From: Acidothermaceae bacterium
GTDB taxonomy: Bacteria > Actinomycetota > Actinomycetes > Acidothermales > Acidothermaceae
Reading direction: 5' to 3'
DNA: 41,020 nt
NCBI GenBank assembly: GCA_025934355.1
Contig: JAICYF010000005.1
Location: 1 to 41,020, forward strand
Numbering within the stretch: position 1 is the stretch's first letter; the number at the start of each line of letters is the position of its first letter. Positions 2,946-24,727 of the stretch are shown piece after piece. Under the pieces are notes generated by a model. The model did no database searches and was not told the origin of the DNA. It saw nothing but the letters and a program-made list of their open reading frames with translations. Made by a program: the position numbers and the translations under genes.

Positions 2946-3659
2946 ATGTACAGGAGCGTCAACAGGGTGGGGCGTCAGGTTCCTGAGGCGGTGGAGCACC
3001 GACTCGGTCGAATCGACACCGCAACTCTTTCCGATGCGATGGGTCGACACGGCGCGATGTCGCACCGCATCCGGCCGCTTGATCTTGGTATGAAGATCGT
3101 CGGCTCAGCGCTTACGGTGCAGTGCCCGCGCAACGACAACCTCATGGTCCACAAGGCGCTTCAGCTCGCCCGCCCGGGCGATGTCCTGGTTGTCGACACC
3201 GGCGGCACATACGACGCCACGGTTCTCGGTAGGAACATGGCGCTGTTTGCGAACCGGGTCGGCGTAGTGGGCGCCGTAATAGACGGGAGCGTCCGCGACC
3301 GCTCCGGGATCATCAGCATCCCTTTTCCAGTCTTCTGCGTCGGGCTCGTGCCCAGGTCTGCCGTCAAGCATGCGATGGGGTCGGTCGACGTCCCGATCGT
3401 GTGCGGTGGTGTCGTCGTGCAGCCTGGCGACATCGTCGTCGGTGACGAGGACGGCGTTGTCGTCGTACCGCACCAGATCGCCGAAGAAGTTGCCGAAGCC
3501 GCCGAAAAACGTTTGGAGATGGAAAATCAGCAGGCCCTGGACGTGGTTGACAATGATCTCCCACTCGAAATCCTCTATGGCGACACTTGGGTCGACGAAC
3601 GGCTCGAACCCAACCTGCACGAGCCCTTTCAGGTCCCCGGTCACATCAACCCGCGCTAA
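2946..3659 (+). CDS. RraA-like 4-hydroxy-4-methyl-2-oxoglutarate aldolase / oxaloacetate decarboxylase family protein
   Basis: This 237-residue protein is of the RraA/HMG-aldolase fold. It shows the GDVLVVDTGG segment and the metal/substrate-site phrase GAVIDGSVRDRSGI, in which R117 and D118 match the family's conserved Arg-Asp pair. Characterised members with intact motifs are divalent-metal class II aldolases that release pyruvate from 4-hydroxy-4-methyl-2-oxoglutarate or 4-carboxy-4-hydroxy-2-oxoadipate, and they also decarboxylate oxaloacetate. Others (RraA itself) only bind RNase E. The catabolic neighbours favour the enzyme. The ATG at 2946 follows a purine-rich AGAGGGAG; translation from further upstream would give a non-family, Pro/Arg-rich leader. 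The CoA-transferase gene starts 12 bases after its stop, so the two are co-transcribed. Confidence 0.82.
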   Translation: MYRSVNRVGRQVPEAVEHRLGRIDTATLSDAMGRHGAMSHRIRPLDLGMKIVGSALTVQCPRNDNLMVHKALQLARPGDVLVVDTGGTYDATVLGRNMALFANRVGVVGAVIDGSVRDRSGIISIPFPVFCVGLVPRSAVKHAMGSVDVPIVCGGVVVQPGDIVVGDEDGVVVVPHQIAEEVAEAAEKRLEMENQQALDVVDNDLPLEILYGDTWVDERLEPNLHEPFQVPGHINPR

Positions 3660-3671
3660 GCGGGGCTCCAC

Positions 3672-5087
3672 ATGGACAAGGTTTACTCGTCTGCTGCGGA
3701 GGCAGTGGCTGACATCCCTGACGGTGCGAGCATCGCGGTCTCTGGATTCGGCATCGGCCACCGCTTTCCGACGTCGCTCATCGTCGCTCTTCGAGACCAG
3801 GGCACCCGACGACTGTGCGTAATTTGCAACTCGCTCGGCGCACCCGGTCAACTGCGTGCACAGATCCTTGCCGAGAACGGTCAGATTTCCCGATTGATTA
3901 CCGCGTTCTCCGCCCGGCCGGGGATGCGCTCGGAGACCGAGGGTCAGATCGCCCGAGGGGAAGTTGAGCTCGAGCTGGTCTCGCAGGGCGTGCTCGTTGA
4001 GAGATTGCGTGCGGGGGCCTCGGGCGTCCCCGCGTATTACTCGCCGACAGGCGCCGACACTGTCTTGGGAGTGGGCAAGGAAATTCGCGACTTCGACGGA
4101 CGGTCTTACGTGCTCGAGTCTGCGTTGCGGCCTGACTTTGCTTTTCTGCGCGCACACCGTGCGGACCGCTACGGCAACCTGGAGTTCCGCGGCGGCAGCC
4201 AGAACTTCAATCCGGTCTTCGGCAAGGCGGCTAAGGTGGCCATCGCGGAGGCGGATGAGATCGTCGAGGTCGGCGACATTCCGCCCGACAGGGTGGGACT
4301 TGCGGGCGCGTTCGTCGCACGCGTCGTGCCAAGCACCGTCAAGGTTGATGTGGCCACCGCCGCCGTGCGCCCTGGCCGGGGGGCCGACACTTTCCGGAGC
4401 TACTTCGACAAGGCGGCCCTTAGCCGCTCAGCTATCGCACAACGTGCTACGCGTCTGTTGCCGGACGGCAGTGTCGTGAACCTTGGCGTTGGAATACCGA
4501 CGCTCGTCTCGAACTGTATTGACGACCGCGACATCATGTTGCACGCAGAGAACGGCATCCTCGGTTACGGTCCGCTCATCGATGGAGATGCCTTCGATCC
4601 CGACATCTACAACGCGGGCGGCGGCTTCGTCTCGCTGCGCCCAGGCGCGTCATTCTTTGACAGCACAACGTCGTTCGACCTTGCGCACGCCGGTGCACTA
4701 GACGCGGTGATTCTTGGTGGTTATCAGGTCGATGAAACCGCGAGCCTTGCCAATTGGAGCACACCAGACATGGTCGGCGGCGGAATCGGGGGAGCTATGG
4801 ACCTTGCTTCGAGCGGGAGCATGCTCGTCGTCCTGATGGAACATCTCGACAGCAAGGGACGGCCCAAACTCGTTCGCGAATGCACCTACCCGTTGACCGC
4901 CCGCGCGTGCGTCGACGTCGTCATCACCGACCTCGCGTTGTTCAGACGGCGCGGCGACCGCTTCGTCATCGAGGAAGTCGCTCCGGGCTTCACCGTTGAC
5001 GAAGTGCTATCGCTAACCGAGATGGGTGTCGACGTCTCGCCCGACGTGAAGACGCTCTCGGGCGAGCCCTCAGCGAGCATTGCGTGA
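3672..5087 (+). CDS. Family I CoA-transferase with fused alpha and beta halves
   Basis: A 471-residue protein that moves CoA between carboxylic acids. The alpha half (about 1-235) carries the glycine-rich AVSGFGIGHRFP segment and GNLEFRGGSQNFNP. The beta half (about 245-471) carries NLGVGIPTLVSNCI and the catalytic glutamate E293 in HAENGILGYGP, the expected position for 3-oxoacid CoA-transferases. The length suits a fused enzyme of the SCOT or acetate/glutaconate CoA-transferase group; many bacteria keep the halves as separate genes. The substrate cannot be read from the sequence. Lying directly behind the RraA-like gene, it probably activates or exchanges CoA on an organic acid in this pathway. 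Its start at 3672 follows CGGGGCTCC and is otherwise unremarkable. Confidence 0.88.
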   Translation: MDKVYSSAAEAVADIPDGASIAVSGFGIGHRFPTSLIVALRDQGTRRLCVICNSLGAPGQLRAQILAENGQISRLITAFSARPGMRSETEGQIARGEVELELVSQGVLVERLRAGASGVPAYYSPTGADTVLGVGKEIRDFDGRSYVLESALRPDFAFLRAHRADRYGNLEFRGGSQNFNPVFGKAAKVAIAEADEIVEVGDIPPDRVGLAGAFVARVVPSTVKVDVATAAVRPGRGADTFRSYFDKAALSRSAIAQRATRLLPDGSVVNLGVGIPTLVSNCIDDRDIMLHAENGILGYGPLIDGDAFDPDIYNAGGGFVSLRPGASFFDSTTSFDLAHAGALDAVILGGYQVDETASLANWSTPDMVGGGIGGAMDLASSGSMLVVLMEHLDSKGRPKLVRECTYPLTARACVDVVITDLALFRRRGDRFVIEEVAPGFTVDEVLSLTEMGVDVSPDVKTLSGEPSASIA

Positions 5088-5098
5088 CCTGACCGTGT

Positions 5099-5120
5099 GA
5101 CCTGGAGCCGGTAGCAGGTC
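5099..5120 (+). terminator. Weak hairpin after the CoA-transferase gene
   Basis: GACCTG (5099-5104) and CAGGTC (5115-5120) can pair with a 10-base loop, 12 bases past the stop. There is no T-run. With the 172-base gap before the next gene it may mark a transcript end. The half-site GAGACAG at 5155-5161 in the same gap recurs in the palindrome at 21251. Confidence 0.25.
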
Positions 5121-5259
5121 GCCGCTCAGCTTTTCGTGATGACGTTCGACATCCGAGACAGAACGCTGGGACTCGTCGCGACCGCCGCCAGATACTGCCG
5201 CTTGACCGGTCGAGAACATGACCGGCTTGATGACTTATCCCGCCCAAGGTTGGTGAAGC

Positions 5260-6162
5260 ATGACAAGGCGCCGCGTCGCGATCGTGGGCTCGGGCAATAT
5301 TGGCACCGATCTCATGGTCAAGGCGTTGCGCTCCGAGCATCTCGAAGTTGCCGCAGTCGTCGGCATCGACCCGAACTCGGATGGTCTGTCGCGCGCGAGA
5401 GCAGCCGGCGTCGACGCATCCGCCGAGGGCGTCGACTGGTTATTGACGCAGGACCCGCTTCCGGACCTCGTGTTTGAAGCGACGTCAGCGAAAGCGCATG
5501 CGGCGAACGCACCGAAATATGCGGAGGCGGGAGTCCAAGCGATCGACCTGACACCGGCCGCCGTCGGGCCATTCGTCGTCCCGTCGGTCAACCTAGTCGA
5601 GCATCTAGACACCCCGAACCTCAACATGATCACGTGCGGCGGACAGGCGACCATTCCGATCGTCGCTGCGGTGAGTGCGGTGGTTGAGGTGCCCTACGCA
5701 GAGATCGTCGCCTCAATCGCGTCTCGGTCCGCTGGACCAGGAACGCGCGCAAATATCGATGAATTCACGATCACGACCGCGCGCGGCGTCGAAGAGATCG
5801 GCGGTGCGGCGCGTGGGAAGGCGATCATCGTTCTCAATCCGATGGAACCTCCGATGATCATGCGGGACACGGTCTTTTGCGCCCTGCCTGAAGAAGCCGA
5901 TCACGAGAAGATCGCGCGGTCGATCGAGGCGATGGTCGCCCACGTTAGGGACTACGTACCGGGATACCGTCTCATTGCCGAGCCTCAGTTCGATGATCCG
6001 CGACCTGAGTGGGACGGCTGGGGGCGCGTCACCGTTCTCCTCGAAATCGAAGGAAACGGCGACTATCTGCCTTCATACGCCGGCAACCTCGACATCATGA
6101 CGGCCGCCGCGATTCGCGTTGGTGAGCAGCTCGCACGAACCGAAGGGCGTCACGGCCGATGA
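5260..6162 (+). CDS. mhpF: Acetaldehyde dehydrogenase (acylating)
   Basis: This enzyme oxidises acetaldehyde (or another short aldehyde) with NAD+ and CoA to the acyl-CoA. At 300 residues it has family length. An N-terminal Rossmann segment [15 protein letters not shown] binds NAD, and the catalytic cysteine is C126 in [11 protein letters not shown], where the family places it. The dimerisation/aldolase-contact half follows, including [16 protein letters not shown]. It overlaps the following aldolase gene by four bases (ATGA), as in known mhpFE/dmpFG pairs, whose products form a complex that channels the aldehyde. No 2-oxopent-4-enoate hydratase or ring-cleavage gene lies nearby, so the upstream chemistry is not the standard meta-cleavage route. 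Confidence 0.93.
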
Positions 6163-7196
6163 GCGAGATCGATCTCCGAATCACCGACTCCACCCTGCGA
6201 GACGGCAGTCACGCTATGGGTCACCAATTCCACGTGGACGACGTGCGGGCCACCGTTCGTGCCCTCGACCGCGCCGGAGTTCCGGTCATCGAAGTGGCTC
6301 ACGGCGACGGTCTCGGGGGCTCGTCGTTCAACTATGGGTTCTCCGCGACCGACGAGATGGCCCTTGTCGATGTCGCCGTCGAGGAAGCGCGTACGGCGAA
6401 GATCGCTGTGCTCCTCTTGCCTGGGGTTGGCACCACAAATCATCTTCGTGCCGCTGCCGACCGCGGTGTACGTGTCGTCCGCGTCGCGACGCACTGCACC
6501 GAAGCAGACATCGCGACCGAACACTTCGAGATTGCCCGCGAGTTAGGTCTTGAGACCGTGGGCTTCCTCATGCTGTCGCACATGCTCGATCCGGCCGCCC
6601 TCGCGGTGCAGGCGCGAATCATGGTCGACGCAGGTGCCGAATGCGTGTATGTCGTCGACTCTGCCGGGGCTCTCGTTCTTGATGACGCTGGCGATCGCGT
6701 CGCAGCGATCGTGAGCGCGGTCGGCGACGCCGCCCAGGTCGGCTATCACGGCCACAACAACCTCGCACTCGGGGTTGCCAACTCGGTGCTGGCCTATCGC
6801 GCGGGCGCGCGGCAAATCGATGGGGCGACGTGCGCACTCGGCGCAGGAGCAGGGAACTCCCCGACCGAGGTTCTCGCGGCGGTCTTCGCGCGGCTTGGCA
6901 TCGCCACCGGAATCGATCTCGCGGCGATTCTCGACGCGGCCCATGATGTTGTGCGTCCCTACATGAAGCGCGAACCGACCATGGACCGAAACTCGGTCAT
7001 CATGGGGTATGCCGGTGTCTACTCGAGCTTTCTGCTCCACGCGGAGCGCGCTGGCCGACGGTATGGGGTGCCGCCGCACAAGATATTGGAAGAGGTGGGG
7101 CGGCGTCGCTATGTCGGCGGTCAAGAGGACATGCTCATCGACATCGCGATCGGTATGGCTAGCGACACTGCCCGCGTGGCGGAGAGGGAACGCTGA
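6159..7196 (+). CDS. mhpE: 4-Hydroxy-2-oxovalerate aldolase
   Basis: A class II aldolase that cleaves 4-hydroxy-2-oxoacids into pyruvate and an aldehyde, which is passed to the acylating dehydrogenase encoded just upstream. The 345-residue protein is a DRE-TIM barrel with [15 protein letters not shown] (R14, D15, H18), metal ligands H197 and H199 in YHGHNN, and [12 protein letters not shown]. The C-terminal [16 protein letters not shown] region contacts the dehydrogenase in solved homologues. Its start overlaps the dehydrogenase stop, and its own stop is two bases before the next GTG, so translation is probably coupled. It may accept a longer 4-hydroxy-2-oxoacid than the classical substrate; the sequence does not decide this. 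Confidence 0.93.
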
Positions 7197-7198
7197 CC

Positions 7199-7744
7199 GT
7201 GGAGCTTTCACTCGAAGAAATCGGCGAGCTGCTTGCGTACATCGATCGTCTCGACGCTGCTGAGGTCGAGATAACGCTCGGGGATCTGCACCTGCTTGTC
7301 CGTCGCGCAGGTGCTGTGGCCTCGCCAGCCGGCGACGCGACCGTTAAGGACACCGGCCGTGCGCAGGAGATCGTGCCTGCAGACTCCGCTCGAGACTCCA
7401 TTGCGCAGCCGGCCGCGGCATCGGAACCGGCGGTGAGCGCCCCCGCGCCGACGGTCGCCGCCGCGGCGCTCGACGAATGGCTGCAAGCCGAGAAGGCCGG
7501 TGAGGCGCAGATCATCCGCTCCCCTATGGTCGGCACCTTCTACCGTGCGAAAGACCCGGGCGCGCCCCCCTTTGTCGAGATTGGCTCCGAGGTCACGCCG
7601 GATGACGTCGTGTGCCTAGTCGAGGTCATGAAGCTGTTCCATTCCGTTGCCGCCAGAACCGCAGGTGTGGTGCGCGCTGTCTTCGTCGCCGACAACGAGG
7701 TTGTCGAACACATGCAGCCGCTCATGGCTGTGACGCAGGCGTAA
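7199..7744 (+). CDS. Biotin carboxyl carrier protein (AccB type)
   Basis: A 181-residue protein that carries carboxylated biotin between the biotin carboxylase and a carboxyltransferase. The N-terminal 38 residues (LSLEEIGELLAYIDRLDAAE, then EITLGDLHLLVRR) resemble the AccB N-terminal segment. A long Ala/Pro linker (about 45-95) follows, then a biotinyl domain beginning SPMVGTFYR. The biotinylated lysine is K145 in VEVMKLFHS. Two bases separate its GTG start from the preceding aldolase stop. Free-standing carriers of this kind usually serve acetyl-CoA carboxylase. Here the only carboxyltransferases nearby are of the pyruvate/oxaloacetate type, so it probably works with those. Confidence 0.9.
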   Translation: MELSLEEIGELLAYIDRLDAAEVEITLGDLHLLVRRAGAVASPAGDATVKDTGRAQEIVPADSARDSIAQPAAASEPAVSAPAPTVAAAALDEWLQAEKAGEAQIIRSPMVGTFYRAKDPGAPPFVEIGSEVTPDDVVCLVEVMKLFHSVAARTAGVVRAVFVADNEVVEHMQPLMAVTQA

Positions 7745-7764
7745 GGCGAGGGTCGGAGCGCCGA

Positions 7765-9141
7765 ATGCCTGCCGCGATCGCGATTGGCCGCGTCTTCATC
7801 GCCAACAGAGGCGAGGTCGCCGTGCGTATCGTGCGCGCCTGCCAGAAGCTCGGACTCGAGTCCGTAGTCGGTTTCGCCGAGCCCGACCGCTCGTCGCTCG
7901 CCGTACGCCTCGCCGACCGTGCCATCTGCATCGGACCTGCGCGGGCCAGTGAGAGCTACCTCGACCACGAAAGAGTGGTCTCCGCCGCAATCGCGACCGG
8001 GTGTGACGCGGTGCATCCCGGCTACGGTTTCGTCGCCGAATCTGCTGACTTCGCCGAACTATGTCGCGCGCAAGGTCTCGTCTTTGTCGGACCGTCGTCC
8101 GAGGTTCTCCGGTCAATGGGCGACAAGAGCGCGGCAAGGACCGCCGCGATGGCTGCAGGCGTGCCGGTGCTGCCGGGTAGCCCGCCGCTTGCAAGCCTCG
8201 ATGACATCGCTCTCGAAACTCTTGAGTTTCCGTTGTTGCTGAAGGCAGTTGCTGGAGGTGGCGGGCGCGGTATCCGGGTGGTCGAAGACGCGAGCGCACT
8301 CGCCGGCGCCTTTGACATAGCCTGCAGAGAGGCGCAAGCGTCGTTCGGCGATGGTCGCGTTTATCTCGAAAAGCTGATTCGGCGTGCGCGGCATCTCGAG
8401 GTGCAGGTGCTCGCTGACGGGCACGGAACAGTGGTTCACCTGGGCGAGCGTGAATGCTCCGTTCAGCGACGGCACCAGAAGGTGCTCGAGGAGGCACCCG
8501 CGGTCGTCGATCCGTCGGTGCGGCGGTCCGTGCTCGATTCTGCCGTCCAGCTCGCGGATTGGCTTGGCTACCAAGGTGCCGGCACTGTCGAATACGTGCT
8601 CGACGCCGATACGGGCGACGCGTGGTTCATCGAGATGAACCCGCGACTTCAGGTCGAGCACGGCGTCACGGAGCAGGTGACCGGCGTCGACATCGTGGGT
8701 CAGCAACTCGTGATCGCGGCCGGGCATTCCCTGGCATTTGGCCAAGACGACGTGCTTACGAGCGGCCACGCGATCCAATGGCGAATGACGGCCGAATCAG
8801 TCGAGGACGGACTTATTCCGAGGCCCGGTCTCATCACGCGCTGGCAACCGCCGGAATCGATCGGACTACGCATAGACACGCATTGCTACGCCGGCTACGC
8901 AGTTCCACCGTTCTACGATTCGCTTCTCGCAAAGCTGATTGCCTACGGACCGACGCGCGAGGACGCGATACGCCGTCTCGATAGCGCAGCGGCGTCGTTC
9001 GAAGTCGTCGGCGTGCCAACCACCCTTGATCTTTGCCGCGCGGTCTTGGCGGAGCCGGACTTCCAGCGTGGCGACGTCTCGACCACGTGGCTCGACGGCG
9101 TCATCGAAGCAATCGGCGAGAGGCGAAGCGTTGGGACGTAG
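7765..9141 (+). CDS. Biotin carboxylase subunit
   Basis: This ATP-grasp enzyme carboxylates the biotin of the carrier protein using bicarbonate and ATP. The 458-residue length is normal for a stand-alone subunit. Seen: N-terminal IANRGEVAVRIVRAC, HPGYGFVAESADFA, the glycine-rich ATP loop KAVAGGGGRGIR (about 160-171), the bicarbonate/biotin-site segment ERECSVQRRHQKVLEEAP, and the metal-binding EMNPRLQVEH. The ATG at 7765 has GGAG six bases upstream and gives the family N-terminus; a longer in-frame reading overlaps the carrier gene and is rejected. Its end overlaps the TTG start of the carboxyltransferase by eleven bases. There is no fused biotinyl domain, consistent with the separate carrier gene. 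Confidence 0.93.
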   Translation: MPAAIAIGRVFIANRGEVAVRIVRACQKLGLESVVGFAEPDRSSLAVRLADRAICIGPARASESYLDHERVVSAAIATGCDAVHPGYGFVAESADFAELCRAQGLVFVGPSSEVLRSMGDKSAARTAAMAAGVPVLPGSPPLASLDDIALETLEFPLLLKAVAGGGGRGIRVVEDASALAGAFDIACREAQASFGDGRVYLEKLIRRARHLEVQVLADGHGTVVHLGERECSVQRRHQKVLEEAPAVVDPSVRRSVLDSAVQLADWLGYQGAGTVEYVLDADTGDAWFIEMNPRLQVEHGVTEQVTGVDIVGQQLVIAAGHSLAFGQDDVLTSGHAIQWRMTAESVEDGLIPRPGLITRWQPPESIGLRIDTHCYAGYAVPPFYDSLLAKLIAYGPTREDAIRRLDSAAASFEVVGVPTTLDLCRAVLAEPDFQRGDVSTTWLDGVIEAIGERRSVGT

Positions 9142-10606
9142 GGTCGCAATCGTAGACACGACGATCCGTGACGGGCATCAGTCGCTCTGGGCGTCACGGA
9201 TGTCGACGGCGATGATGCTTCCGGTGGCTGAACACCTTGAGCGTTCGGGCGTCGATTCCGTCGACATCATGAGCCATGCGTGCTTCGACGCCGCCGTCCG
9301 GTTCGTCGGCGACAACCCGCTCGAGCGCATGCGCGTACTACGCAGAATCATGCCTACCCCCGCGTTGGCCACGAGCCATTCCGGCAGCGACTTCTGGGGG
9401 TTCAAGTCGGTGGCGCCCGATGTCGCGCGACTCGACCTCGATCTGGCCATCGACACCGGTGTCGATCGATTGCGTTTCATCAACGGCTTGCTCGACTTCG
9501 ATCCGATCGTTGACAGCGCGCGGCATGCCAAGAGTCGAGGTGTCGCCACGATCGGCGCGCTCGTTTTTTCGGAAAGCCCGGTGCACACCGATGAGCTGTA
9601 CGAGAGGAAGGCGCGCGAGATTGTCGAGCGTGCTGACGTCGACTGGATCATGATCAAGGACTCTGGCGGGCTGCTGACGTCGGAGCGTGCAGGCTCGCTG
9701 ATTGACGCCGTACGACGTGGGGCCGGCACGAAGAAGGTCACCCTCCACGGTCACAGCATGACCGGGCTCGCCCATCGGGTGTACATGATTGGTGTCGAGC
9801 ATGGTGTCGACGAAGTGCAGTGCGCCATTTGGCCGCTCGCACTGGGGACGTCGCAGCCTTCGACGCAACGCATCGTCCGCAACTTGCGTGAAGAGGGTTA
9901 CCAGGTAGACGTCGACGACGCCGAGATTGACGCGGCGAGTGTTTACCTGACTCGCCTCGCCCGCGCAAAGGGGCTGCCGCTTGGTGAAGCCCCGGAGTAC
10001 GACCACTTTCACTACCGTCATCAGGTTCCCGGCGGCATGATGTCGAACCTTCGAGCGCAGCTCGCGGACGCTGGTCTGCTTGATCGGCTCGATTCCCTGC
10101 TGGAAGAGACCGCGCGGGTGCGCGAGGAACTCGGCTGGCCGACGATGGTGACTCCGTACTCGCAGTTCGTCGGCAGCCAAGCGCTACTCAACGTCGTCCA
10201 CGGCGAGCGCTACTCAGTCGTGCCTGACCAGATCAAGAAGTACGCCATGGGCCACTACGGGAAACTGCTCGCACCGGTAGATCCCAACGTGCTCGACAGA
10301 ATCATGAACAACGGGTCACCCGGCATCGACGAGAAGGCGGAGGCGCCGGCGCCTGTTCTCGATGAGATGCGCCGCCGCCTCCCTCGTGCGTCGGACGAAG
10401 AGCTGTTGTTGCGCGCGCTCTGTCCCGAAGACGCTGTCGAGCGGGTTATTGCCGGCGGCGGGATTGCCGACGCGGGTATCGGCCCGCTCACCGGCAGCGA
10501 CGTCGCGGGCATCGGAAAACTCGTGGGTCATCTGGCTGGACGGGCGAAACCCGGCGGTGAGGTCGTGTTCGAACAGGGTGATTTGCGCGTGCGGGTAAGG
10601 GGCTGA
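9131..10606 (+). CDS. PYC/OadA-type carboxyltransferase subunit, paralogue 1
   Basis: This TIM-barrel carboxyltransferase moves a carboxyl group between biotin and an oxo-acid. Of 491 residues, the catalytic parts are conserved: metal-site DTTIRDGHQSLW (D9, R13), the carbamylated-lysine position K176 in MIKDSGGLL, and metal ligands H206 and H208 in LHGHSMTG. It also has the FHYRHQVPGGMMSN and ELGWPTMVTPYSQFV segments. The usual LLRGxN substrate segment is replaced by ATSHSGSDFWGF, so pyruvate/oxaloacetate is not certain. It has no biotinyl domain and instead ends in GEVVFEQGDLRVRVRG, resembling the carrier N-terminus. The TTG at 9131 is chosen for GAGAGG upstream and for agreement with the family N-terminus; it overlaps the biotin carboxylase gene. 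A close paralogue lies at 23201. Confidence 0.88.
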   Translation: MGRRVAIVDTTIRDGHQSLWASRMSTAMMLPVAEHLERSGVDSVDIMSHACFDAAVRFVGDNPLERMRVLRRIMPTPALATSHSGSDFWGFKSVAPDVARLDLDLAIDTGVDRLRFINGLLDFDPIVDSARHAKSRGVATIGALVFSESPVHTDELYERKAREIVERADVDWIMIKDSGGLLTSERAGSLIDAVRRGAGTKKVTLHGHSMTGLAHRVYMIGVEHGVDEVQCAIWPLALGTSQPSTQRIVRNLREEGYQVDVDDAEIDAASVYLTRLARAKGLPLGEAPEYDHFHYRHQVPGGMMSNLRAQLADAGLLDRLDSLLEETARVREELGWPTMVTPYSQFVGSQALLNVVHGERYSVVPDQIKKYAMGHYGKLLAPVDPNVLDRIMNNGSPGIDEKAEAPAPVLDEMRRRLPRASDEELLLRALCPEDAVERVIAGGGIADAGIGPLTGSDVAGIGKLVGHLAGRAKPGGEVVFEQGDLRVRVRG

Positions 10607-10610
10607 CTGA

Positions 10611-13212: not shown

Positions 13213-13234
13213 CTTCTCGCCGAAAGAGGTGCCC

Positions 13235-14037: not shown

Positions 14038-14118
14038 CGGACCTAGGGTCGATGAGGGGTTCCCTCGTTACGCTCCTACATCTCCCGACGGGGCCGCCAC
14101 GAACGGAAGGCCAGATAG

Positions 14119-15222: not shown

Positions 15223-15295
15223 CCGAGTCCCGGCGAGCGACCGTCGTCGGATTGCGTCGTCGCGCACTGTGAGTTCAAGCGAAGGAAGAGCACCG

Positions 15296-17095: not shown

Positions 17096-17138
17096 CCGCA
17101 CGACCGGACTTATCGATTTCGTGAACGAGGAAGTGGAC

Positions 17139-18308
17139 GTGACATCCGACATGGAGGCCACATTGACGCCAAGGAGTCCTGACGTGGATTCTGTGGCCGC
17201 GCCACGCCGCGTCGTCGTCAGCGTTCGCGACATCGTCAAGCGCTTTCAGCGGGCAGGCGGGAGCGTCACAAATGCCGTCGACAACGTCGGGTTTGACCTG
17301 TTGGCCGGCGAGTTCTTGGTACTCCTCGGACCCAGCGGCTGCGGAAAGACGACGCTGTTGCGCACGATCGCCGGGCTCGAGCGGCCCGACGGCGGCACCA
17401 TCGAGATAGACGGTCGGTTGTGCGACTCCTCCGAGAATGGCGTTCACGTGCCGACTGAGCGACGCCGGCTCGGGATGATCTTTCAGTCGTATGCGCTGTG
17501 GCCGCACATGACCGTTTTCGACAACGTCGCCTATCCGTTGCGCAGCCAGCGCAAGCACAACAAGCGCGACATCGCCGATCGCGTGGAGCGAGTACTCACG
17601 ATGGTCGGCATTCCCGAACTGACGAAGCAGTATCCGGGCCAGATGAGCGGAGGGCAGCAGCAACGCGTGGCCCTTGCTCGCGCGCTTGTCGCGGGCAGCG
17701 ATCTCGTCCTCTTCGACGAGCCGCTGTCGAATGTCGACGCTCGCGTGCGTGAACAACTCAGATTTGAACTCGCCACGATGCAGCGAGACCTCGGTTTTGC
17801 CGCCGTCTACGTTACCCACGATCAATCCGAGGCCATGGGCCTGGCGCATCGGATAGCCGTCATGGAGTCGGGAAAGATCGTTCAGATCGGTTCTCCGCGC
17901 GAGATCTACGACGAGGCGGCCTCGCGCTATGTCGCCAACTTCGTAGGCACCAGCAACGAGATTCGCGGGAGGGTGCAGTCGGTCGAGCCGGACGGCACGG
18001 CATCCGTCACGACCGTGATAGGAACATTCGTCGGCACGTTGAGCAAGCCCGACATCGCTGCCGGCGACGAGGTCATTCTCGTGTGGCGCCCCGAGGACGG
18101 TGAGCCGAGCATCGAAGAACCGGCATCGAGCAACCGTTTCCGCGCGGTAGTCGAGGCGGCCCTCTTTCTTGGCTCGCATACCGAATACAGCATTCGCGTT
18201 GGTGAGAGCCGCTTTCGTCTATGGCGCGCGAGCCGGCGCCAGCTCAGCACTGACGCTGAAATCTGGGTGACTGTCGACGCGGCGAGCATGCGCATTCTCC
18301 GCCCCTGA
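17139..18308 (+). CDS. ABC transporter ATP-binding protein
   Basis: The cytoplasmic ATPase energising the preceding permease. Seen in about 389 residues: Walker A GPSGCGKTT, Q-loop IFQSYALWPHMTV, signature MSGGQQQRVALARAL, Walker B DLVLFDEPLSNVDAR and switch histidine VYVTHDQSEAMG. A C-terminal TOBE-type domain follows (from about 235), as in FbpC/PotA-like proteins. The GTG at 17139 is preferred because GAGG lies eight bases upstream; an in-frame GTG at 17121 and ATG at 17151 are alternatives. The stretch after the start up to about residue 25 is poorly conserved. The TcuA-like dehydrogenase gene follows after 64 bases and may share the transcript. Confidence 0.92.
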   Translation: MTSDMEATLTPRSPDVDSVAAPRRVVVSVRDIVKRFQRAGGSVTNAVDNVGFDLLAGEFLVLLGPSGCGKTTLLRTIAGLERPDGGTIEIDGRLCDSSENGVHVPTERRRLGMIFQSYALWPHMTVFDNVAYPLRSQRKHNKRDIADRVERVLTMVGIPELTKQYPGQMSGGQQQRVALARALVAGSDLVLFDEPLSNVDARVREQLRFELATMQRDLGFAAVYVTHDQSEAMGLAHRIAVMESGKIVQIGSPREIYDEAASRYVANFVGTSNEIRGRVQSVEPDGTASVTTVIGTFVGTLSKPDIAAGDEVILVWRPEDGEPSIEEPASSNRFRAVVEAALFLGSHTEYSIRVGESRFRLWRASRRQLSTDAEIWVTVDAASMRILRP

Positions 18309-18372
18309 CATTCGCCAACTTCAGCACCTTCGGGCCGCCTTTTGCGAAGCAACACCGAGATTGGGAGAGTTC

Positions 18373-19860
18373 ATGACGAGCGAGAGCTACGATGTCGTCG
18401 TTGTCGGTGCGGGAAACGCCGCGTTTTCGGCGGCGCACGCCGCCCGAGAAGAGGGAAGCACTGTTTGCGTGCTCGAGAAGGCGCCCGAAGCGGAACTGGG
18501 GGGGAACTCCTACTTCACGCTTGGGTCGTTCCGGACGACGTATGACGGTCTCGCCGATGTCATGTGTATCGTCGACGACCCTGGCGACGTCAGCACCGAC
18601 ACGCACGAGTTACCTTCGTACACGAAGGATGATTTCGCTGCTGACATGCGGCGCGTCACCAAGGGACGCACCGACGAACAGCTCACGCGAGTGCTCGTTG
18701 AGAATTCGTTTACCACGCTGCAGTGGCTTCATCGACATGGAATCAAGTTCAAGCTGCAGTCCGATAATCAGGTCTTCGAGGTCAATGGCAAGAAGCGCTT
18801 TTGGGGTGGCGGCACGATCGCGGTCGTCGGCGGCGGCATCGGTCTTATCGAGCAACACTTGTCGGCTGCCAAGAACTCGGGAATCGTGGTGAAGACAGAG
18901 CACCGGATGGTTGGCTTCCAACAGGGACCTACTGGCGAGGTGTCCGGCGTCGTGTGCCAAACGCCGAGCGGGCAAAAGGTGATTGAAGGAAAGTCTGTGG
19001 TTCTTGCGTCAGGCGGATTTGAGGCTGACGCGAGACTGCGTGCTACATACCTCGGTCCGGGCTGGGAGACGGCCCGCGTGCGGGGAAGCCGCTACAACAC
19101 CGGCGAGGCGCTCATGGCGGCGCTCGACTACGGCGCTCAGTCGTTCGGAAACTGGTCAGGCGCGCATGCGGTGGCGTGGGACAAGAACGCCGGTGTCTTC
19201 GGCAACCGCGTTCTGACAAACAAGCTGCAGCGGCATTCATATCCATTCGGCATCATGGTGAACACCGATGGTCGGCGGTTCATCGACGAGGCGTCGGACT
19301 TCCGCAACTACACGTACGCCATGGTGGGAGCAGCCATCTTGCGTCAACCTGGCGGCGTCGCCTTCCAGATCTTCGACAAGCAGGGCTCGGGGATGCTGCG
19401 GACGGATTACGGACACGAGGGCATCACGCGGGTGACGGCGGACTCCATCAAAGATCTGGCCGAAAAGATGGAGGTTGATCCCGACGCGCTGTGCGCGACG
19501 ATCGACGAGTTCAACGCCGGTGTTCAAGAGACGCCGTTTGACCCCACGGTCCTCGACGGCAAGCGAACCGTCGGAGTGAACCCGCCCAAGAGCAACTGGG
19601 CGCGCAAAATCATCGAACCGCCCTTCATAGCCTTTCCGACCGTGTGTGCGATCACGTTCACCTACGGCGGTCTGCGCGTCGACACTGACGCCCGCGTGCT
19701 GGACCAGCGCGATCAGCCCGTCCCGGGTCTACACGCGGCAGGCGAAGTGGTTGGCGGGTTGTTCTACGAGAACTATCCCGGGGGCTCAGGTCTGATGTCG
19801 GGTGCAGTCTTCGGCTACCGAGCCGGCAAGTCTGCGGCGGCGTACAGCAAGAGCCGATGA
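18373..19860 (+). CDS. FAD-dependent dehydrogenase, TcuA/fumarate-reductase-like
   Basis: A 495-residue flavoprotein of the FAD_binding_2 (fumarate reductase/succinate dehydrogenase) superfamily. The N-terminal FAD site reads YDVVVVGAGNAAFSAAHAA, then VLEKAPEAELGGNSYFT. The middle contains VVLASGGFEAD and the C-terminus GLHAAGEVVGGLFYENYPGG. The LEKAPExxxGGNS phrase and overall length recall TcuA, which oxidises tricarballylate to cis-aconitate, but 3-ketosteroid dehydrogenase-like enzymes share the fold. There is no export signal. The ATG at 18373 has GGGAGAG just upstream. It follows the ABC importer genes, so it probably oxidises the imported compound. No tcuB gene is adjacent; the membrane Fe-S protein at 24882 could accept its electrons. 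Confidence 0.83.
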   Translation: MTSESYDVVVVGAGNAAFSAAHAAREEGSTVCVLEKAPEAELGGNSYFTLGSFRTTYDGLADVMCIVDDPGDVSTDTHELPSYTKDDFAADMRRVTKGRTDEQLTRVLVENSFTTLQWLHRHGIKFKLQSDNQVFEVNGKKRFWGGGTIAVVGGGIGLIEQHLSAAKNSGIVVKTEHRMVGFQQGPTGEVSGVVCQTPSGQKVIEGKSVVLASGGFEADARLRATYLGPGWETARVRGSRYNTGEALMAALDYGAQSFGNWSGAHAVAWDKNAGVFGNRVLTNKLQRHSYPFGIMVNTDGRRFIDEASDFRNYTYAMVGAAILRQPGGVAFQIFDKQGSGMLRTDYGHEGITRVTADSIKDLAEKMEVDPDALCATIDEFNAGVQETPFDPTVLDGKRTVGVNPPKSNWARKIIEPPFIAFPTVCAITFTYGGLRVDTDARVLDQRDQPVPGLHAAGEVVGGLFYENYPGGSGLMSGAVFGYRAGKSAAAYSKSR

Positions 19861-19896: not shown

Positions 19897-19926
19897 AAAC
19901 TATGGCGCACGCAGGTGGCGGTCGAC

Positions 19927-21108
19927 CTATGCGCGGTCGAACGGCTTGCGTGCGACTAGTAGGGCGCTGCCTGCCAGCATCCCGCAGAGCGTGAGGAAAA
20001 TAGCTGCGATCCCTGTCGCGCCGGCGACCGCACCGACAGCGACCGGAACCGAGAGCTGACCCAGCCGGTTGCCTGACAGGCGCACGCCGAGGGCGGTCCC
20101 GCGAAGGCCAGCGGGTGCTCGGCCAGCCACCCAGGCCATCGTCAGCGGTTGCCCGAGCCCGAGTCCGAGTCCGATCAACACCATGAGCATGAAGAGCACC
20201 GGCACCGACCCGATCGCTGGCAGGAGTCCTAGTGCCGCGGCGGCGCAGGCGATGCTTAGGACCAGCAGTCGATGTGGCCCGAACCCGCGCGCGAGGACGC
20301 CGATTAACAGTCGAGTCGTCATGGAAGCGATCGCGCGCGCCGCGAGCAGCAGGCCGACGGTTCTGGGCGTGATACCGCGACTCTCGCCGAACGCGGGGAG
20401 GTAAGTAACGAGCACGTCAACGGTCGAGAGCACGGCGAGGCTTGCAAACATCGCTTCGCCCATCCCGCGCACCCTTAGCACTTTCCGCACCGCCGGAAGC
20501 GTCGCGGCCCGCGTGGCGAGATCCTCCCCCCGTGCCGTGGTGGGTACGCGTGCCAGCGTCGCCGCCACGATGCTCCCAGTCACCGCTATCGCCGCCGACG
20601 CAGTCAGTGCAACCGTCGTCCCTTGCCCGCCCTGCCACAGCGACGCCGCCATCGCCGGGCCGATCGCCTGTCCGAGCGAGACCATTACCGTGGTTCCCCC
20701 GAATCGGGCGCCATGGTCCTTGTCGCCGCCGGCGTTCGCCACGAGTGTCTGCAAGGCGACGGTGGCGAGCGTCTGCCCGAGGCCCACAATCGCCAGCATC
20801 GCGACGAGCGCAGCGATGTTGTGGGCGAAGACGAGTGCGATTCCGGTGGCAGCGATTAACGCAGTGCCGCTCGCCATGAAGAGCGCCTCGCCGAATCGGT
20901 CGGCGAGGCGGCCGGCAGGCACGGCGGCAAACAGCGCGAGCGCGGCAAAGGAGGCTCCTAGAACGCCAAGCTCGACAGGCGTCGCACCAAGGTGAACGGC
21001 TTGGTACGACACGATGACCCTGATGGCTTGGACAGCCGTCGTCAGCAGCAAGGTCACGAGCAGTGTTCGCAAGTACCACGTTCTCGCGGTCTTCACGTTG
21101 TCGGCCAC
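19927..21108 (-). CDS. Major facilitator superfamily transporter
   Basis: A 393-residue membrane protein with twelve predicted hydrophobic segments. The MFS loop 2-3 signature appears as AGRLADRFGEALFMASG, and the later loop as ARAIASMTTRLLIGVLARGFG. Its length and composition suit a drug/metabolite:proton antiporter or a small-molecule importer; the substrate is not readable. The GTG start at 21108 has no good ribosome site, but it gives a typical short basic N-terminus before the first helix. The gene is divergent from the aldo/keto reductase gene across a 216-base region that carries the GAGACAGTCTC palindrome, which suggests shared control. Confidence 0.9.
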   Translation of the reverse strand: MADNVKTARTWYLRTLLVTLLLTTAVQAIRVIVSYQAVHLGATPVELGVLGASFAALALFAAVPAGRLADRFGEALFMASGTALIAATGIALVFAHNIAALVAMLAIVGLGQTLATVALQTLVANAGGDKDHGARFGGTTVMVSLGQAIGPAMAASLWQGGQGTTVALTASAAIAVTGSIVAATLARVPTTARGEDLATRAATLPAVRKVLRVRGMGEAMFASLAVLSTVDVLVTYLPAFGESRGITPRTVGLLLAARAIASMTTRLLIGVLARGFGPHRLLVLSIACAAAALGLLPAIGSVPVLFMLMVLIGLGLGLGQPLTMAWVAGRAPAGLRGTALGVRLSGNRLGQLSVPVAVGAVAGATGIAAIFLTLCGMLAGSALLVARKPFDRA

Positions 21109-21324: not shown

Positions 21325-22329
21325 ATGGAACACACTTTCTTGGGCCGCAGCGGTGTGCGCGTGCCCCGCGTCGCGCTCGGGACGGCGACGTTTGGGCTGC
21401 AGTGTGACGAGAGTGAGTCCCGGGCGATCCTCGACCACGCGGTGGACCTTGGTTCGACCTGGTTGGACACGTCGACGAGCTATCCGCTGGGTAGCGGGCC
21501 CACCGTCGTCGGCGTCACCGAGGCGCTCCTTGGTCGCTGGTTGCGAGGTCGGCGCGAGAGCTGCTTTGTGTCGACGAAGGTGTACAACCGAACCGGCCCC
21601 GCGCCGTGGCAGCTTGGCCTGTCGCGGCACCACGTGATCAGCGCGGTCGACGGCTCGCTGGCTCGACTTGGCGCCGACTACATCGATCTGTTGCAGTTGC
21701 ACCGCTGGGACGCGCGAACCCCAGTGGAGGAGACGCTCGAGGCTCTTCGCATCCTGGTTGAGTCAGGCAAGGTTCGCTATGTCGGCTGCTGCAACTTCAT
21801 GGCATACCAGATGGCGCAGGCGATCACGCTGAGCGAGGTTTGCCGGCTACCGCTGCTGCAGACCGCGCAGCTGCGTTACAACCTGCTCACCAGAGGACCC
21901 GAAATAGAGGCTTTCCAGCTTTGCCGCGAGAAAGACGTGACCGTGCTCGCGTTCAACGTTCTCGCCGGGGGGATCCTCGCGGGCAAGTACGAGCGCGGTA
22001 AGGAACCGAGCTCGGAAAGCCGGTTTAGCGTTGGCGAAGCGGGCGAGCGTTACCGGGCACGCTATTGGAACGACACGACGTTCGACATCGTTGAGCGCGT
22101 CCGTGCGATCGCCAAGGAAGTGGGTGTTGCGATGCCCACGCTCGCAACGGCCTGGGTGCTCAGTCGACCTGAGGTCGTCGCCGTCATCGGCGCAAGCAAG
22201 GCAAGCCATGTCGACACCGCCTTCGAAGCACTGCAGCTAAAGCTGGACGACGATGTGGTCGCCGCGCTCGACGAGGCGACCGCCGAACGACGCCGTCCGA
22301 CGGAGGAGATCCAGTTTGAGTCCAGCTGA
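21325..22329 (+). CDS. Aldo/keto reductase
   Basis: A 334-residue NAD(P)H-dependent reductase of carbonyl compounds. The AKR catalytic tetrad is complete: Asp and Tyr in LDTSTSYP, Lys in VSTKVYN, His in LLQLHRWD. The cofactor-binding end includes AFNVLAGGILAGKY and VIGASKASHVDTAFEAL. The ATG at 21325 fits the family start (MEHTFLGRSGVRVPRVALG), with GAGGG a few bases upstream; a longer in-frame reading lacks homology. Its substrate is unknown. A 41-base gap containing AGGAGG separates it from the ComA-like gene, so they are in one operon and may act on successive intermediates. Confidence 0.9.
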   Translation: MEHTFLGRSGVRVPRVALGTATFGLQCDESESRAILDHAVDLGSTWLDTSTSYPLGSGPTVVGVTEALLGRWLRGRRESCFVSTKVYNRTGPAPWQLGLSRHHVISAVDGSLARLGADYIDLLQLHRWDARTPVEETLEALRILVESGKVRYVGCCNFMAYQMAQAITLSEVCRLPLLQTAQLRYNLLTRGPEIEAFQLCREKDVTVLAFNVLAGGILAGKYERGKEPSSESRFSVGEAGERYRARYWNDTTFDIVERVRAIAKEVGVAMPTLATAWVLSRPEVVAVIGASKASHVDTAFEALQLKLDDDVVAALDEATAERRRPTEEIQFESS

Positions 22330-22359
22330 CAATCCACCACTGCCCGAGGGGCCAACACT

Positions 22360-22365
22360 AGGAGG
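22360..22365 (+). promoter_or_regulatory. Ribosome binding site deciding a TTG start
   Basis: AGGAGG lies five bases before TTG at 22371. No ATG or GTG at this spacing gives the ComA-like N-terminus, so the site fixes TTG as the start. Confidence 0.8.
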
Positions 22366-22370
22366 ATCTC

Positions 22371-23204
22371 TTGACAGACCAGAGCCCAGACCGTGCCTTC
22401 CCATTCCTGCGTCTCAACGACCGCGCGCAGCGGCCGCGCTCCGTGGGACTGACAGAGATTCGCGGTCCCTACTACACGGCTATGGGTCCTGCCTACCTTC
22501 GCGACCTGCTTGAGTCAGTGGGGCAGCATGTCGACTCGTTCAAGTTCCCAGGCGCCTCCATGCCGCTGATGTCGCGAGCGACACTCGCGGCCTTTATCGA
22601 CGCCTGCCACGACCACGGTGTGCAGGTCTCGACGGGCGGTCTGATCGAGTTCGTTCTGACCCGAGGCCCCGAAGCCGTCGAGAACTACTTCAATGCCATT
22701 CGCGACTACGAGTTCGACATCGTTGAAATTTCGGTGGGAATGCTCGCGGTGCCTCCGTCGGACTACCTGCGTCTGATTAAACGCGGCAAGAAGGCCGGGC
22801 TTCATGTGAAGGCCGAGGTCGGCGTGCAGTTCGGTGCGGGCGGCACCTCGTCGGTCTCCGAGCTCGAGGCCGAGGGCATCAGCGACCCGGCCTGGGCGGT
22901 TGAGCGCGCCAAGCGGGCATTCGACGCGGGCGCCGACATTGTGCTGCTCGAATCCGAGGGCGTGACCGAGCAGGTGCGCGAATGGCGCACCGACGTGCCG
23001 GCCGCGTTCATTCGAGAGTTCGGCCTGGAACGCGTGATGTTTGAGGCAGCCGACCCGCCGGTGTTCGAGTGGTACGTCAAAAACTACGGCCCCGAGGTCA
23101 ATCTGTTCATCGACCACAGCCAGATTTACCAGCTCGAGTGCCTGCGCTCCGGCATCTGGGGAACCAAGAACCTCTGGGGCCGAGTCATCACCTACAAGGG
23201 ATGA
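22371..23204 (+). CDS. ComA-like (phosphosulfolactate synthase family) protein
   Basis: A 277-residue TIM-barrel protein of the ComA family. Seen are RPRSVGLTEIRGPYY, VDSFKFPGASMPLM, GGLIEFVLTRG, DIVEISVGML, KAEVGVQF and the late NLFIDHSQIYQLECLRSGIWG. Known members join sulfite to phosphoenolpyruvate, making 2-phospho-3-sulfolactate for coenzyme M (methanogens) or sulfolactate (Bacillus YitD). No coenzyme M genes are visible here, and the neighbours are an aldo/keto reductase and a carboxyltransferase, whose ATG overlaps its stop (ATGA). It could run in reverse, releasing sulfite, or be a relative with a different nucleophile. The family call is fairly safe; the reaction is not. Confidence 0.8.
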   Translation: MTDQSPDRAFPFLRLNDRAQRPRSVGLTEIRGPYYTAMGPAYLRDLLESVGQHVDSFKFPGASMPLMSRATLAAFIDACHDHGVQVSTGGLIEFVLTRGPEAVENYFNAIRDYEFDIVEISVGMLAVPPSDYLRLIKRGKKAGLHVKAEVGVQFGAGGTSSVSELEAEGISDPAWAVERAKRAFDAGADIVLLESEGVTEQVREWRTDVPAAFIREFGLERVMFEAADPPVFEWYVKNYGPEVNLFIDHSQIYQLECLRSGIWGTKNLWGRVITYKG

Positions 23205-24727
23205 CGGCCACCACCGAACCCGGCGCTGCGAAGCGAAGCACCGGCGGCGCCCGGGAGATCACGATCACCGACACAACGTTGCGTGACGGTCACCAGTCGT
23301 TGTGGGCGGCGCGGATGCCGACCGCCATGATGCTGCCGGTTGCGCGGCACCAGGAGCGGGCTGGTTCGGGCCTCGTTGACGTGTTGGGTCACACCCATCA
23401 TGTGACTGCGGTGCGTTTCCTCCAGGAAAACCCGTGGGAGCGGCTCCGAGCGCTCCGCCGCATCTTCCAGCGTCGCCCCATGGTGGCGGGGCTCGGCGGG
23501 CAGGTGTTCGGCGTGTTCGACCGCGCGCCGGACGACGTTCGGCACGCCTTCCTTGAGCAGTTGGTCGAGTGCGGTGTCTCGTACGTGAGGGACGCACACG
23601 GGTTGCTCGATGTCGACTCCTACGTCGCGAACCTCGGCTACGCAAAGCGACTTGGCGCGCGGACGATCGCCGGTCTCGTCTTCAGTGAGAGCCCGGTGCA
23701 CACCGACGAGCTGTACGCGTCCCGCGCGCGAGAGATCATTGAGCGGGCCGATGCCGACTGGATCATGATCAAAGACTCAAGCGGGCTGTTAACTCCGGAA
23801 CGCACCGCCACGTTGGTACCCGCGCTCCGCGCCGCCGTCGGCGACCGGGTGCTGACCCTGCACAGCCACTGCATCACCGGCCTCGCCGGTCGCGTTTACA
23901 TGGTTGGTGTCGCGCACGGTGTCGACGACGTGCACTGCGCGATCTGGCCCCTCGCGCTGGGCTCATCGCAGCCGTCGCTTGCAACGGTCGCTCGCAACCT
24001 CAGGGAGGAGGGTTACCGAGTCGACATCGACGACCGCGAGATCGAACAGGCGAGCGAGTTCCTCGTTCAGGAAGCGCGATCGCGCGGTCTACCACTTGGC
24101 ACGGCGCTCGAGTATGACCAGTTCCACTATCGGCACCAGATGCCGGGCGGGATGCTCACGAACCTCGAGGTGCAGTTGCGCGATGCAGGTCTAGCTGACA
24201 GATTCGGTGAAATCCTCGCCGAGACATCGCGCGTGCGCGAGGAACTCGGTTGGCCGACGATGGTGACGCCGTACTCCCAGTTCGTCGTCAACCAGGCCGT
24301 GCTGAACGTGATAGACGGCGACCGCTATGCCACGGTGCCAGACCAGGTGAAGATGTATGCGCTCGGCTACTACGGCGCCCTTCTCGCTCCTGTTGATCCG
24401 AACGTCCTCGACCGCATTGTGACGAATGGGTCTCCCGCGATTACTGCCGACGCTGGTGATGTGCCTCACGCGTTACCGGGGTTGCGGAGGCAATTTCTGC
24501 AGGCGGACGACGCGCAGTTGCTGTTGAGGTTCATGTGCGCGGGCCCGGACGTAGACCGAATGCTCGAGCGGGAAGCTCGTGATCCGTCGACTAACGAGCC
24601 GGGCCTTGCACCCAGTTCGAGCCGTATCGCGGGACTGGTCGGTGTCCTTTCGCGGATCACCGAACGAGGCGTGGGCGGCGAGGTGGTCGTCGAGCGGCAA
24701 GGGCTGCGCGTGCGCGTGCGTAGCTGA
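23201..24727 (+). CDS. PYC/OadA-type carboxyltransferase subunit, paralogue 2
   Basis: A 508-residue paralogue of the protein encoded at 9131, with long identical stretches such as ELGWPTMVTPYSQFV and LLAPVDPNVLDRI. The active-site set is kept: DTTLRDGHQSLW (D24), K191 in MIKDSSGLL, H221 and H223 in LHSHCITG. The substrate segment is MVAGLGGQVFGVF, different both from the usual LLRGxN and from paralogue 1, so the two probably use different carboxyl acceptors or donors. An 18-residue Ala/Gly-rich N-terminal extension precedes the barrel. It has no biotinyl domain. The tail GGEVVVERQGLRVRVRS again resembles the biotin carrier N-terminus. No second carrier or biotin carboxylase gene is present, so both paralogues probably share the set at 7199-9141. 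Confidence 0.87.
   Translation: MTATTEPGAAKRSTGGAREITITDTTLRDGHQSLWAARMPTAMMLPVARHQERAGSGLVDVLGHTHHVTAVRFLQENPWERLRALRRIFQRRPMVAGLGGQVFGVFDRAPDDVRHAFLEQLVECGVSYVRDAHGLLDVDSYVANLGYAKRLGARTIAGLVFSESPVHTDELYASRAREIIERADADWIMIKDSSGLLTPERTATLVPALRAAVGDRVLTLHSHCITGLAGRVYMVGVAHGVDDVHCAIWPLALGSSQPSLATVARNLREEGYRVDIDDREIEQASEFLVQEARSRGLPLGTALEYDQFHYRHQMPGGMLTNLEVQLRDAGLADRFGEILAETSRVREELGWPTMVTPYSQFVVNQAVLNVIDGDRYATVPDQVKMYALGYYGALLAPVDPNVLDRIVTNGSPAITADAGDVPHALPGLRRQFLQADDAQLLLRFMCAGPDVDRMLEREARDPSTNEPGLAPSSSRIAGLVGVLSRITERGVGGEVVVERQGLRVRVRS

Follow-up and report, generated by a model that had tools for sequence, protein, structure and literature searches.

A biotin-dependent carboxylase gene cluster with a 3-oxoacid CoA-transferase in an Acidothermaceae genome: a candidate variant of ketone carboxylation

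What is the substrate of a three-part biotin-dependent carboxylase whose genes are set among those of aldolases, a CoA-transferase and a thiolase-like protein? This question is raised by a gene cluster (positions 2946 to 24727) on contig JAICYF010000005.1 of an Acidothermaceae bacterium (assembly GCA_025934355.1), of which a stretch of 41,020 nucleotides, hereafter the window, was analysed. The genome is a metagenome-assembled genome (MAG) of 3.19 Mb, 84% complete. A first-pass annotation had described a biotin-dependent catabolic cluster, in which two carboxyltransferases would act on 2-oxoacids and lead the substrate to citrate. The biotin-dependent catabolic cluster, with its CoA-transferase and several C-C lyases, is retained here, but not the 2-oxoacid carboxylation toward citrate. 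The cluster is real and unusual, and its 2-oxoacid/citrate interpretation probably wrong. A better reading is probably a variant of biotin-dependent ketone carboxylation, rather than a new category of pathway. In such a variant, a ketone would be carboxylated, the resulting 3-oxoacid would be converted into its CoA thioester and a C-C bond would be cleaved, a proposal to which we give about even chances. It mainly involves the following genes.

3672-5087, plus strand, fused 3-oxoacid (SCOT/PcaIJ-type) CoA-transferase (TIGR02429, ENG motif)
7199-7744, plus strand, biotin carboxyl carrier protein (BCCP; PF00364, EVMK biotinylation motif)
7765-9141, plus strand, biotin carboxylase (BC; PF00289, PF02786, PF02785)
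9131-10606, plus strand, carboxyltransferase CT1 (PF02436, PF00682; TTG start inferred)
10611-11768, plus strand, retro-aldolase-like protein of the thiolase superfamily, carrying a YDSF motif and no nucleophilic Cys (NF006010, 632 bits, above cut-off)
11765-12208, plus strand, DUF35 partner (zinc ribbon and OB-fold) of the thiolase-like protein (PF12172 and PF01796, both ChsH2-type; four-Cys zinc motif)
23201-24727, plus strand, carboxyltransferase CT2 (PF02436, PF00682)

Two carboxyltransferases with an altered substrate motif

CT1 and CT2, 56% identical, are of the PYC/OadA type in sequence and fold. The predicted model of CT1 (predicted local distance difference test, pLDDT, 83) shows only the known fold, with template modelling (TM) scores of 0.80-0.84 over the query length to pyruvate carboxylase (PC) beta, OadA alpha and 5S, at 28-32% identity in the fold alignment. 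According to the residue alignment, the metal Asp, the active-site Lys, the HxH motif and the Thr/Ser of these enzymes are retained in both CT1 and CT2, whereas the Arg of the LRGQN substrate motif is replaced by Ser in CT1 and by Gly in CT2. This Arg is intact in all the PC-beta, OadA and 5S sequences examined, and ordinary proteins of PC type from the same class that were examined also have it. Its loss in CT1 and CT2 argues against a small 2-oxoacid substrate. The same position is occupied by Ala in three Comamonadaceae relatives (loci L042-L044) and by Thr in L027, L029, L032, L033 and L150. The pocket residues of CT2 differ from those of CT1, and both proteins score under every NCBIfam equivalog cut-off. 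One BCCP and one BC accompany the two carboxyltransferases in the cluster, with no second copy of either beside CT2; CT1 and CT2 would share one carrier. No other PYC_OADA carboxyltransferase was found in the 84%-complete genome, CT1 and CT2 being the only ones of the PYC/OadA type, and three matches to acyl-CoA-type carboxyltransferases lie elsewhere in it.

A tree of 66 rows was built, with supports from the Shimodaira-Hasegawa-like approximate likelihood ratio test (SH-aLRT). CT1, CT2 and the L042-L044 proteins form one clade (support 100), and the branch holding CT1 and CT2 is split from PC, OadA and 5S by 1.36 changes per site (support 100). This large, mostly uncharacterised branch also includes the carboxyltransferases of clusters syntenic with the hpe and acv genes of aryl ketone degradation. 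For instance, locus L150 is syntenic with hpeHICBAD, carrying a phosphoenolpyruvate (PEP)-type kinase pair, BCCP, BC, a carboxyltransferase and a HAD phosphatase. At the position of the LRGQN Arg, at least three changes are required on the tree. The CT1/CT2 and hpe/acv-like clades stand apart in the free tree; their forced grouping is not rejected (approximately unbiased, AU, test, p = 0.073), and therefore a single shared loss of the Arg may be envisaged.

Other substitutions were observed in the family. Carboxyltransferases of L028, L031, L034, L035, L036, L070, L090 and L111 have Glu, Gly or Tyr in place of the active-site Lys, and those labelled L031b and L034a have Asn in place of one metal His. 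These replacements suggest that the metal sites are altered in part of the family.

Conserved neighbours of the carboxylase

A scan of genome contigs gave 79 relatives. Neighbouring genes were counted within a radius of 10 kb at 82 family loci and compared with those of 24 PC-type control carboxylases. A CoA-transferase is encoded at 20 of the 82 family loci, spread over about 10 genera, and near none of the 24 controls. Classical thiolases gave the same counts (20/82 versus 0/24), and the p value of 0.003 obtained for each enrichment is uncorrected for relatedness. A 3-oxoacid CoA-transferase as the conserved partner fits a carboxylated ketone.

Locus L043, from a Comamonadaceae MAG, contains a carboxyltransferase (55% identity), a fused CoA-transferase (61%), BCCP, a thiolase-like protein (63%), a DUF35 protein (46%) and BC. 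Carboxylase and CoA-transferase are also present at L042 and L044, and the CoA-transferase of the window is 61-62% identical to its counterparts in these three Comamonadaceae loci. In Bacillota, the Pseudogracilibacillus auburnensis locus L045 has all six core functions together with AcnX and a tripartite ATP-independent periplasmic (TRAP) transporter. Finally, Actinomycetota loci (L025, L080, L085, L091, L092, L095 and those of Corynebacterium) associate the carboxylase with split CoA-transferase genes and a classical thiolase. A search for the conserved gene set in other actinobacterial genomes had been suggested by the first-pass annotation. The core does recur, in Comamonadaceae and Bacillota, but the aldolase MhpE with the aldehyde dehydrogenase MhpF, the RraA-like enzyme and the ComA-like protein fall outside it: MhpE/F genes lie near only one of the 82 relatives (in Leucobacter), and RraA and ComA-like genes near none. 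The biotin transporter BioY is encoded near 4 of the 82. As MhpFE and RraA lie outside the conserved set, the scheme leading to citrate had been built on accessory genes.

Several of the relatives have arrangements of their own. In many species of Corynebacterium (L093, L098, L099, L103, L104, L108-L110), carboxyltransferase, BCCP and BC genes are found near those of CoA-transferase A and B subunits, a classical thiolase and an IclR regulator; to our knowledge, no function has been described for this set. On Rhodococcus plasmids (L028, 9724-15774, and L148), genes for a dikinase, BCCP, BC, a carboxyltransferase, a DUF35 protein, a Cys-containing thiolase and a Tyr-type phosphatase follow one another in a row, an arrangement resembling a modified hpe cluster in which cleavage would be thiolytic. 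Two or more carboxyltransferases occur at L031, L034, L051, L055, L102 and L111. In these loci, which belong to unrelated lineages, two to three diverged carboxyltransferases (44-45% identity within the L031 and L034 pairs) go with few BC and BCCP genes.

The CoA-transferase and the thiolase-like/DUF35 pair

The CoA-transferase of the window scores 206.7 bits against TIGR02429 (cut-off 128.5) and just below the cut-off of TIGR02428. The catalytic Glu motif ENG is retained, and the nearest solved structures are succinyl-CoA:3-ketoacid CoA-transferases.

In the thiolase-like protein, the nucleophilic Cys is replaced by Gly (NTGGSS, versus NACAS in L028), and a plain thiolase was rejected on this ground. 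The YDSF motif at residue 276 and the adjoining DUF35 gene match the catalytic-Tyr signature of the steroid enzymes Ltp2 (with ChsH2 as DUF35 partner) and Sal (with Shy), which are DUF35-dependent retro-aldolases using the Tyr of YDHF or YDCY as a base (PMC12329534). The Cys-less thiolase fold, the YDxF Tyr and the DUF35 partner are thus common to the three pairs. However, the window protein keeps the HP His and has no MaoC hydratase domain, and its pair adjoins a CoA-transferase gene instead of steroid genes. The second catalytic residue, Tyr344 of Ltp2 or the Cys of the YDCY motif of Sal, is unmatched, Tyr344 aligning near a Ser. Structure prediction yielded no usable model (pLDDT 41). Elsewhere, homologous pairs (64-68%) adjoin short-chain dehydrogenase/reductase (SDR), MaoC and acyl-CoA dehydrogenase genes on plasmids, and the pair accompanies a fused CoA-transferase, without carboxylase, in Agrobacterium vitis and Allorhizobium. 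It is therefore likely that the pair cleaves a CoA thioester, retro-aldol cleavage being the best guess.

On plasmids of the Agrobacterium vitis group (L177, 9614-13386, and L182), the thiolase-like, DUF35 and fused CoA-transferase genes form one run with a gene of the Asp/Glu-racemase family, again without carboxylase.

A possible route of ketone carboxylation

From the anatomy of the cluster and the homology of its proteins, the following route may be envisaged. BC, BCCP and CT1, with CT2 as a second carboxyltransferase, would carboxylate a ketone other than a 2-oxoacid on the carbon adjacent to its carbonyl. From ketone and HCO3-, the reaction would give a 3-oxoacid and consume one ATP. The fused CoA-transferase would then form 3-oxoacyl-CoA from the 3-oxoacid and succinyl-CoA. 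The thiolase-like/DUF35 pair would form or cleave a C-C bond of a CoA thioester, probably in a retro-aldol reaction, either directly or after reduction by the aldo-keto reductase (AKR) of the cluster. The opposite order would be equally possible, the aldolase acting first and thereby providing the carboxylase with its ketone. The end products would be acetyl-CoA and a second acyl-CoA or a carbonyl compound. BioY would supply biotin, the ATP-binding cassette (ABC) importer would bring the growth substrate into the cell, and the MhpFE, RraA, TcuA-like, AKR and ComA-like enzymes would probably prepare or finish the particular substrate.

Carboxylation of ketones on the way to CoA thioesters is known in two forms. 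Acetone carboxylase (Acx) and acetophenone carboxylase (Apc) convert their ketones into 3-oxoacids (PMC5543143, PMC5214803), but they work without biotin and are of a protein family other than that of the window carboxylase. In the second form, HpeCBA, a homologous three-part enzyme, uses biotin and one ATP to convert phosphorylated aryl ketones into beta-keto acids, which are later converted into CoA thioesters and cleaved (PMC9618137). The Hpe system of Rhodococcus rhodochrous GD02 and the Acv system of Sphingobium SYK-6, acting on acetovanillone and 4-hydroxyacetophenone, share with the window a three-part carboxylase having a PYC/OadA-type carboxyltransferase. By analogy, the window carboxylase probably works in the same way as HpeCBA. 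A homologue of HpeCBA, XccBCA of Aromatoleum aromaticum EbN1, is implicated in ketone carboxylation during 4-ethylphenol and 4-hydroxyacetophenone degradation (PMC9618137); its substrate and pathway context differ from those of the window enzyme. The earlier statement that no described pathway has this gene set therefore stands for the full set, none having been found, but has to be qualified, as the carboxylase of Hpe, Acv and Xcc is of this same three-part kind (PMC9618137). Nor was a ketone pathway combining a biotin-dependent carboxylase with a CoA-transferase found in the literature searched, most of it accessible without subscription.

The differences from Hpe and Acv are marked. A CoA-transferase is found in the window where these systems have a CoA ligase, and the Cys-less thiolase-like/DUF35 pair where they have HpeF. 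The window has in addition a second carboxyltransferase, extra lyases and transport genes. On the other hand, no two-part PEP-synthase-like kinase was recognised among the window genes scanned, and no HAD family match, as would be expected for a phosphatase of the HpeD/AcvF type, was found in 195-26963. Because this kinase and this phosphatase are absent, the window is not a member of the Hpe pathway.

Their absence is also one of several points that weigh against ketone carboxylation in the window. The LRGQN Arg is kept in most of the CoA-transferase-linked relatives, and for this reason its loss was rejected as a marker of the CoA-transferase module. At L028, a cluster with dikinase genes, the Arg is kept and the active-site Lys is lost instead. 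The significance of the Arg itself depends on its assignment to substrate binding in PC, where it corresponds to Arg 621 of the Rhizobium etli enzyme and touches pyruvate. Moreover, the HpeB, AcvD/E and XccC families enter the tree only through relatives assigned by synteny, the 24 controls are few for a count of zero, and the 82 relatives are not independent. Finally, the aldolase role is not certain, since the second Tyr of Ltp2 is not kept, although Sal also lacks that Tyr.

A broader proposal may be put forward tentatively, and with more doubt than confidence. A large family of biotin-dependent carboxylases, for the most part not yet studied, would act on ordinary ketones, non-phosphorylated and partly aliphatic, and would be coupled to a 3-oxoacid CoA-transferase and to cleavage of a C-C bond. 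It would extend over many Actinomycetota, Corynebacterium among them, Proteobacteria and some Bacillota. In the present cluster, the retro-aldolase would both make the ketone and process the carboxylated product, with two carboxyltransferases on one carrier. So far, among the known routes, the biotin-dependent one (Hpe, Acv, Xcc) has been shown for phosphorylated aryl ketones, and the only substrates known for the related enzymes are a few lignin-type ketones; the cluster looks like a wider, mostly unstudied version. If true, the descriptions so far would greatly understate how widespread biotin-dependent ketone carboxylation with a 3-oxoacid CoA-transferase is, and the names 'pyruvate carboxylase subunit B' and 'oxaloacetate decarboxylase alpha' would be wrong for many of the proteins that now bear them. 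The specific residues and the neighbouring genes make ketone carboxylation directly testable here.

Alternative explanations

The scheme of the first-pass annotation would make of the cluster an anaplerotic carboxylase linked to a meta-like lower pathway. CT1 and/or CT2 would carboxylate the pyruvate released by MhpE and RraA, and the oxaloacetate formed would join the acetyl-CoA of MhpF at citrate synthase. MhpE and MhpF are indeed bona fide by family and motif and pyruvate would form, the genome has no classical pyruvate carboxylase, and a citrate synthase gene lies beside the cluster. That gene is however on the opposite strand, behind a divergent IclR gene, and MhpFE and RraA do not belong to the conserved core. 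The 3-oxoacid CoA-transferase, which does, would not be needed. With the LRGQN Arg missing from both carboxyltransferases and the long branch separating them from PC, OadA and 5S, this role was rejected as the main one for CT1 and CT2, and it seems quite unlikely.

The two other possibilities concern the relationship between CT1 and CT2. The cluster may consist of two adjacent catabolic operons, the first (2946-19860) with CT1 and the second, made of the AKR, ComA-like and CT2 genes and perhaps the Fe-S protein gene, acting on another substrate and borrowing the BCCP and BC of the first. A minus-strand gene of the major facilitator superfamily (MFS) indeed separates the two runs, the pocket residues of CT2 are unlike those of CT1, ComA-like relatives elsewhere pair with MmgE/PrpD genes and not with carboxylases, and no ComA-like gene lies at any of the 82 loci. 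Yet CT1 and CT2 are close relatives, CT2 has no carrier or BC gene of its own, and several carboxyltransferases also occur together at other loci, from L031 to L111 in the list given above; two independent operons are unlikely, but deserve some credit. Alternatively, CT1 and CT2 could act as a pair, either within a mixed carboxyltransferase or in a transcarboxylation, one of them taking CO2 from a donor acid and the other transferring it to an acceptor, with BC only priming the carrier. The presence of two carboxyltransferases for one carrier and one BC, an architecture that recurs in unrelated lineages including L031 and L034, would suit such a mechanism. However, 12 kb separate the two genes, which belong to different runs, each protein keeps a full catalytic set, and known biotin transcarboxylation combines two dissimilar folds, those of 12S and 5S. 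Such a pairing is very unlikely. Ketone carboxylation remains the preferred reading.

Other genes of the cluster

Every gene named in the first-pass annotation was confirmed as an intact frame with a strong family match. The IclR regulator, the asparaginase, the MFS transporter, the AKR and the membrane Fe-S protein were absent from its list. The features other than those of the core are as follows.

195-1580, minus strand, citrate synthase (family match), beside the cluster
1861-2694, minus strand, IclR-type regulator, divergent from the operon (PF01614, 120 bits; PF09339)
2946-3659, plus strand, RraA-like homologue of class II pyruvate aldolase/oxaloacetate decarboxylase (PF03737, 158 bits; GSVRD motif)
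5260-6162, plus strand, MhpF-type acylating aldehyde dehydrogenase (TIGR03215, 452 bits, above cut-off; catalytic Cys motif CGGQ)
6159-7196, plus strand, MhpE-type 4-hydroxy-2-oxoacid aldolase (TIGR03217, 483 bits, above cut-off; best solved structure 4lrs)
12205-13212, plus strand, asparaginase-family protein (PF00710, PF17763)
13229-13834, plus strand, BioY biotin transporter (PF02632, 133.5 bits)
14119-18308, plus strand, ABC importer, three genes (binding protein 14119-15222, fused permease 15296-17095, ATPase 17121-18308)
18361-19860, plus strand, TcuA-like flavoprotein dehydrogenase (NF006130, 546 bits, cut-off 369; under the TIGR02485 cut-off)
19927-21108, minus strand, MFS transporter
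21325-22329, plus strand, AKR (PF00248, 211 bits)
22371-23204, plus strand, ComA-like TIM-barrel protein (PF02679, 241 bits)
24882-26963, plus strand, membrane Fe-S protein (Fer4 and two CCG domains), of uncertain cluster membership after a gap of about 150 bp behind CT2

From 2946 to 19860, all the genes are on the plus strand, with short gaps or 4-bp overlaps and largest gaps of 172 and 284 bp. Because of this short spacing on one strand, they likely form one or two operons. The asparaginase-family gene, within this catabolic run, overlaps the DUF35 gene by 4 bp. Past the minus-strand MFS gene, the AKR, ComA-like and CT2 genes make up a second plus-strand run (21325-24727), in which the ComA-like and CT2 genes overlap by 4 bp.

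The earlier exclusion of a standard meta pathway holds for the annotated window genes, among which neither a ring-cleavage dioxygenase nor an FAA-type hydratase was found. As compared with the meta-cleavage lower pathway (MhpDEF), MhpE and MhpF are there without 2-oxopent-4-enoate hydratase; four FAA_hydrolase matches lie elsewhere in the genome. The RraA-like protein scores under NCBIfam equivalog cut-offs. So do the ABC importer genes for 2-aminoethylphosphonate, and import of this compound was rejected. The ComA-like protein scores 78 bits against TIGR03849 (cut-off 280) and belongs to a subfamily distinct from archaeal ComA. Considering this subfamily, the MmgE/PrpD neighbours of its relatives and the fact that no other coenzyme M (CoM) gene was recognised in the window, CoM biosynthesis and an epoxide-CoM pathway were rejected.

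In Salinibacter, Methylosinus and haloarchaea (L121, L122, L123), members of the same ComA-like subfamily, 53-57% identical to the window protein, form pairs with MmgE/PrpD genes and are annotated as phosphosulfolactate synthase in spite of their distance from archaeal ComA. In the window, a minus-strand gene at 37176-38321 encodes the N-terminal part of an extracytoplasmic function (ECF) sigma factor followed by a long extra C-terminal part. Elsewhere in the genome, contig C262 (L189) carries a pca-like region with CoA-transferase, thiolase, cycloisomerase-like and hydroxylase-like genes, which suggests that the organism may use 4-hydroxybenzoate or protocatechuate.

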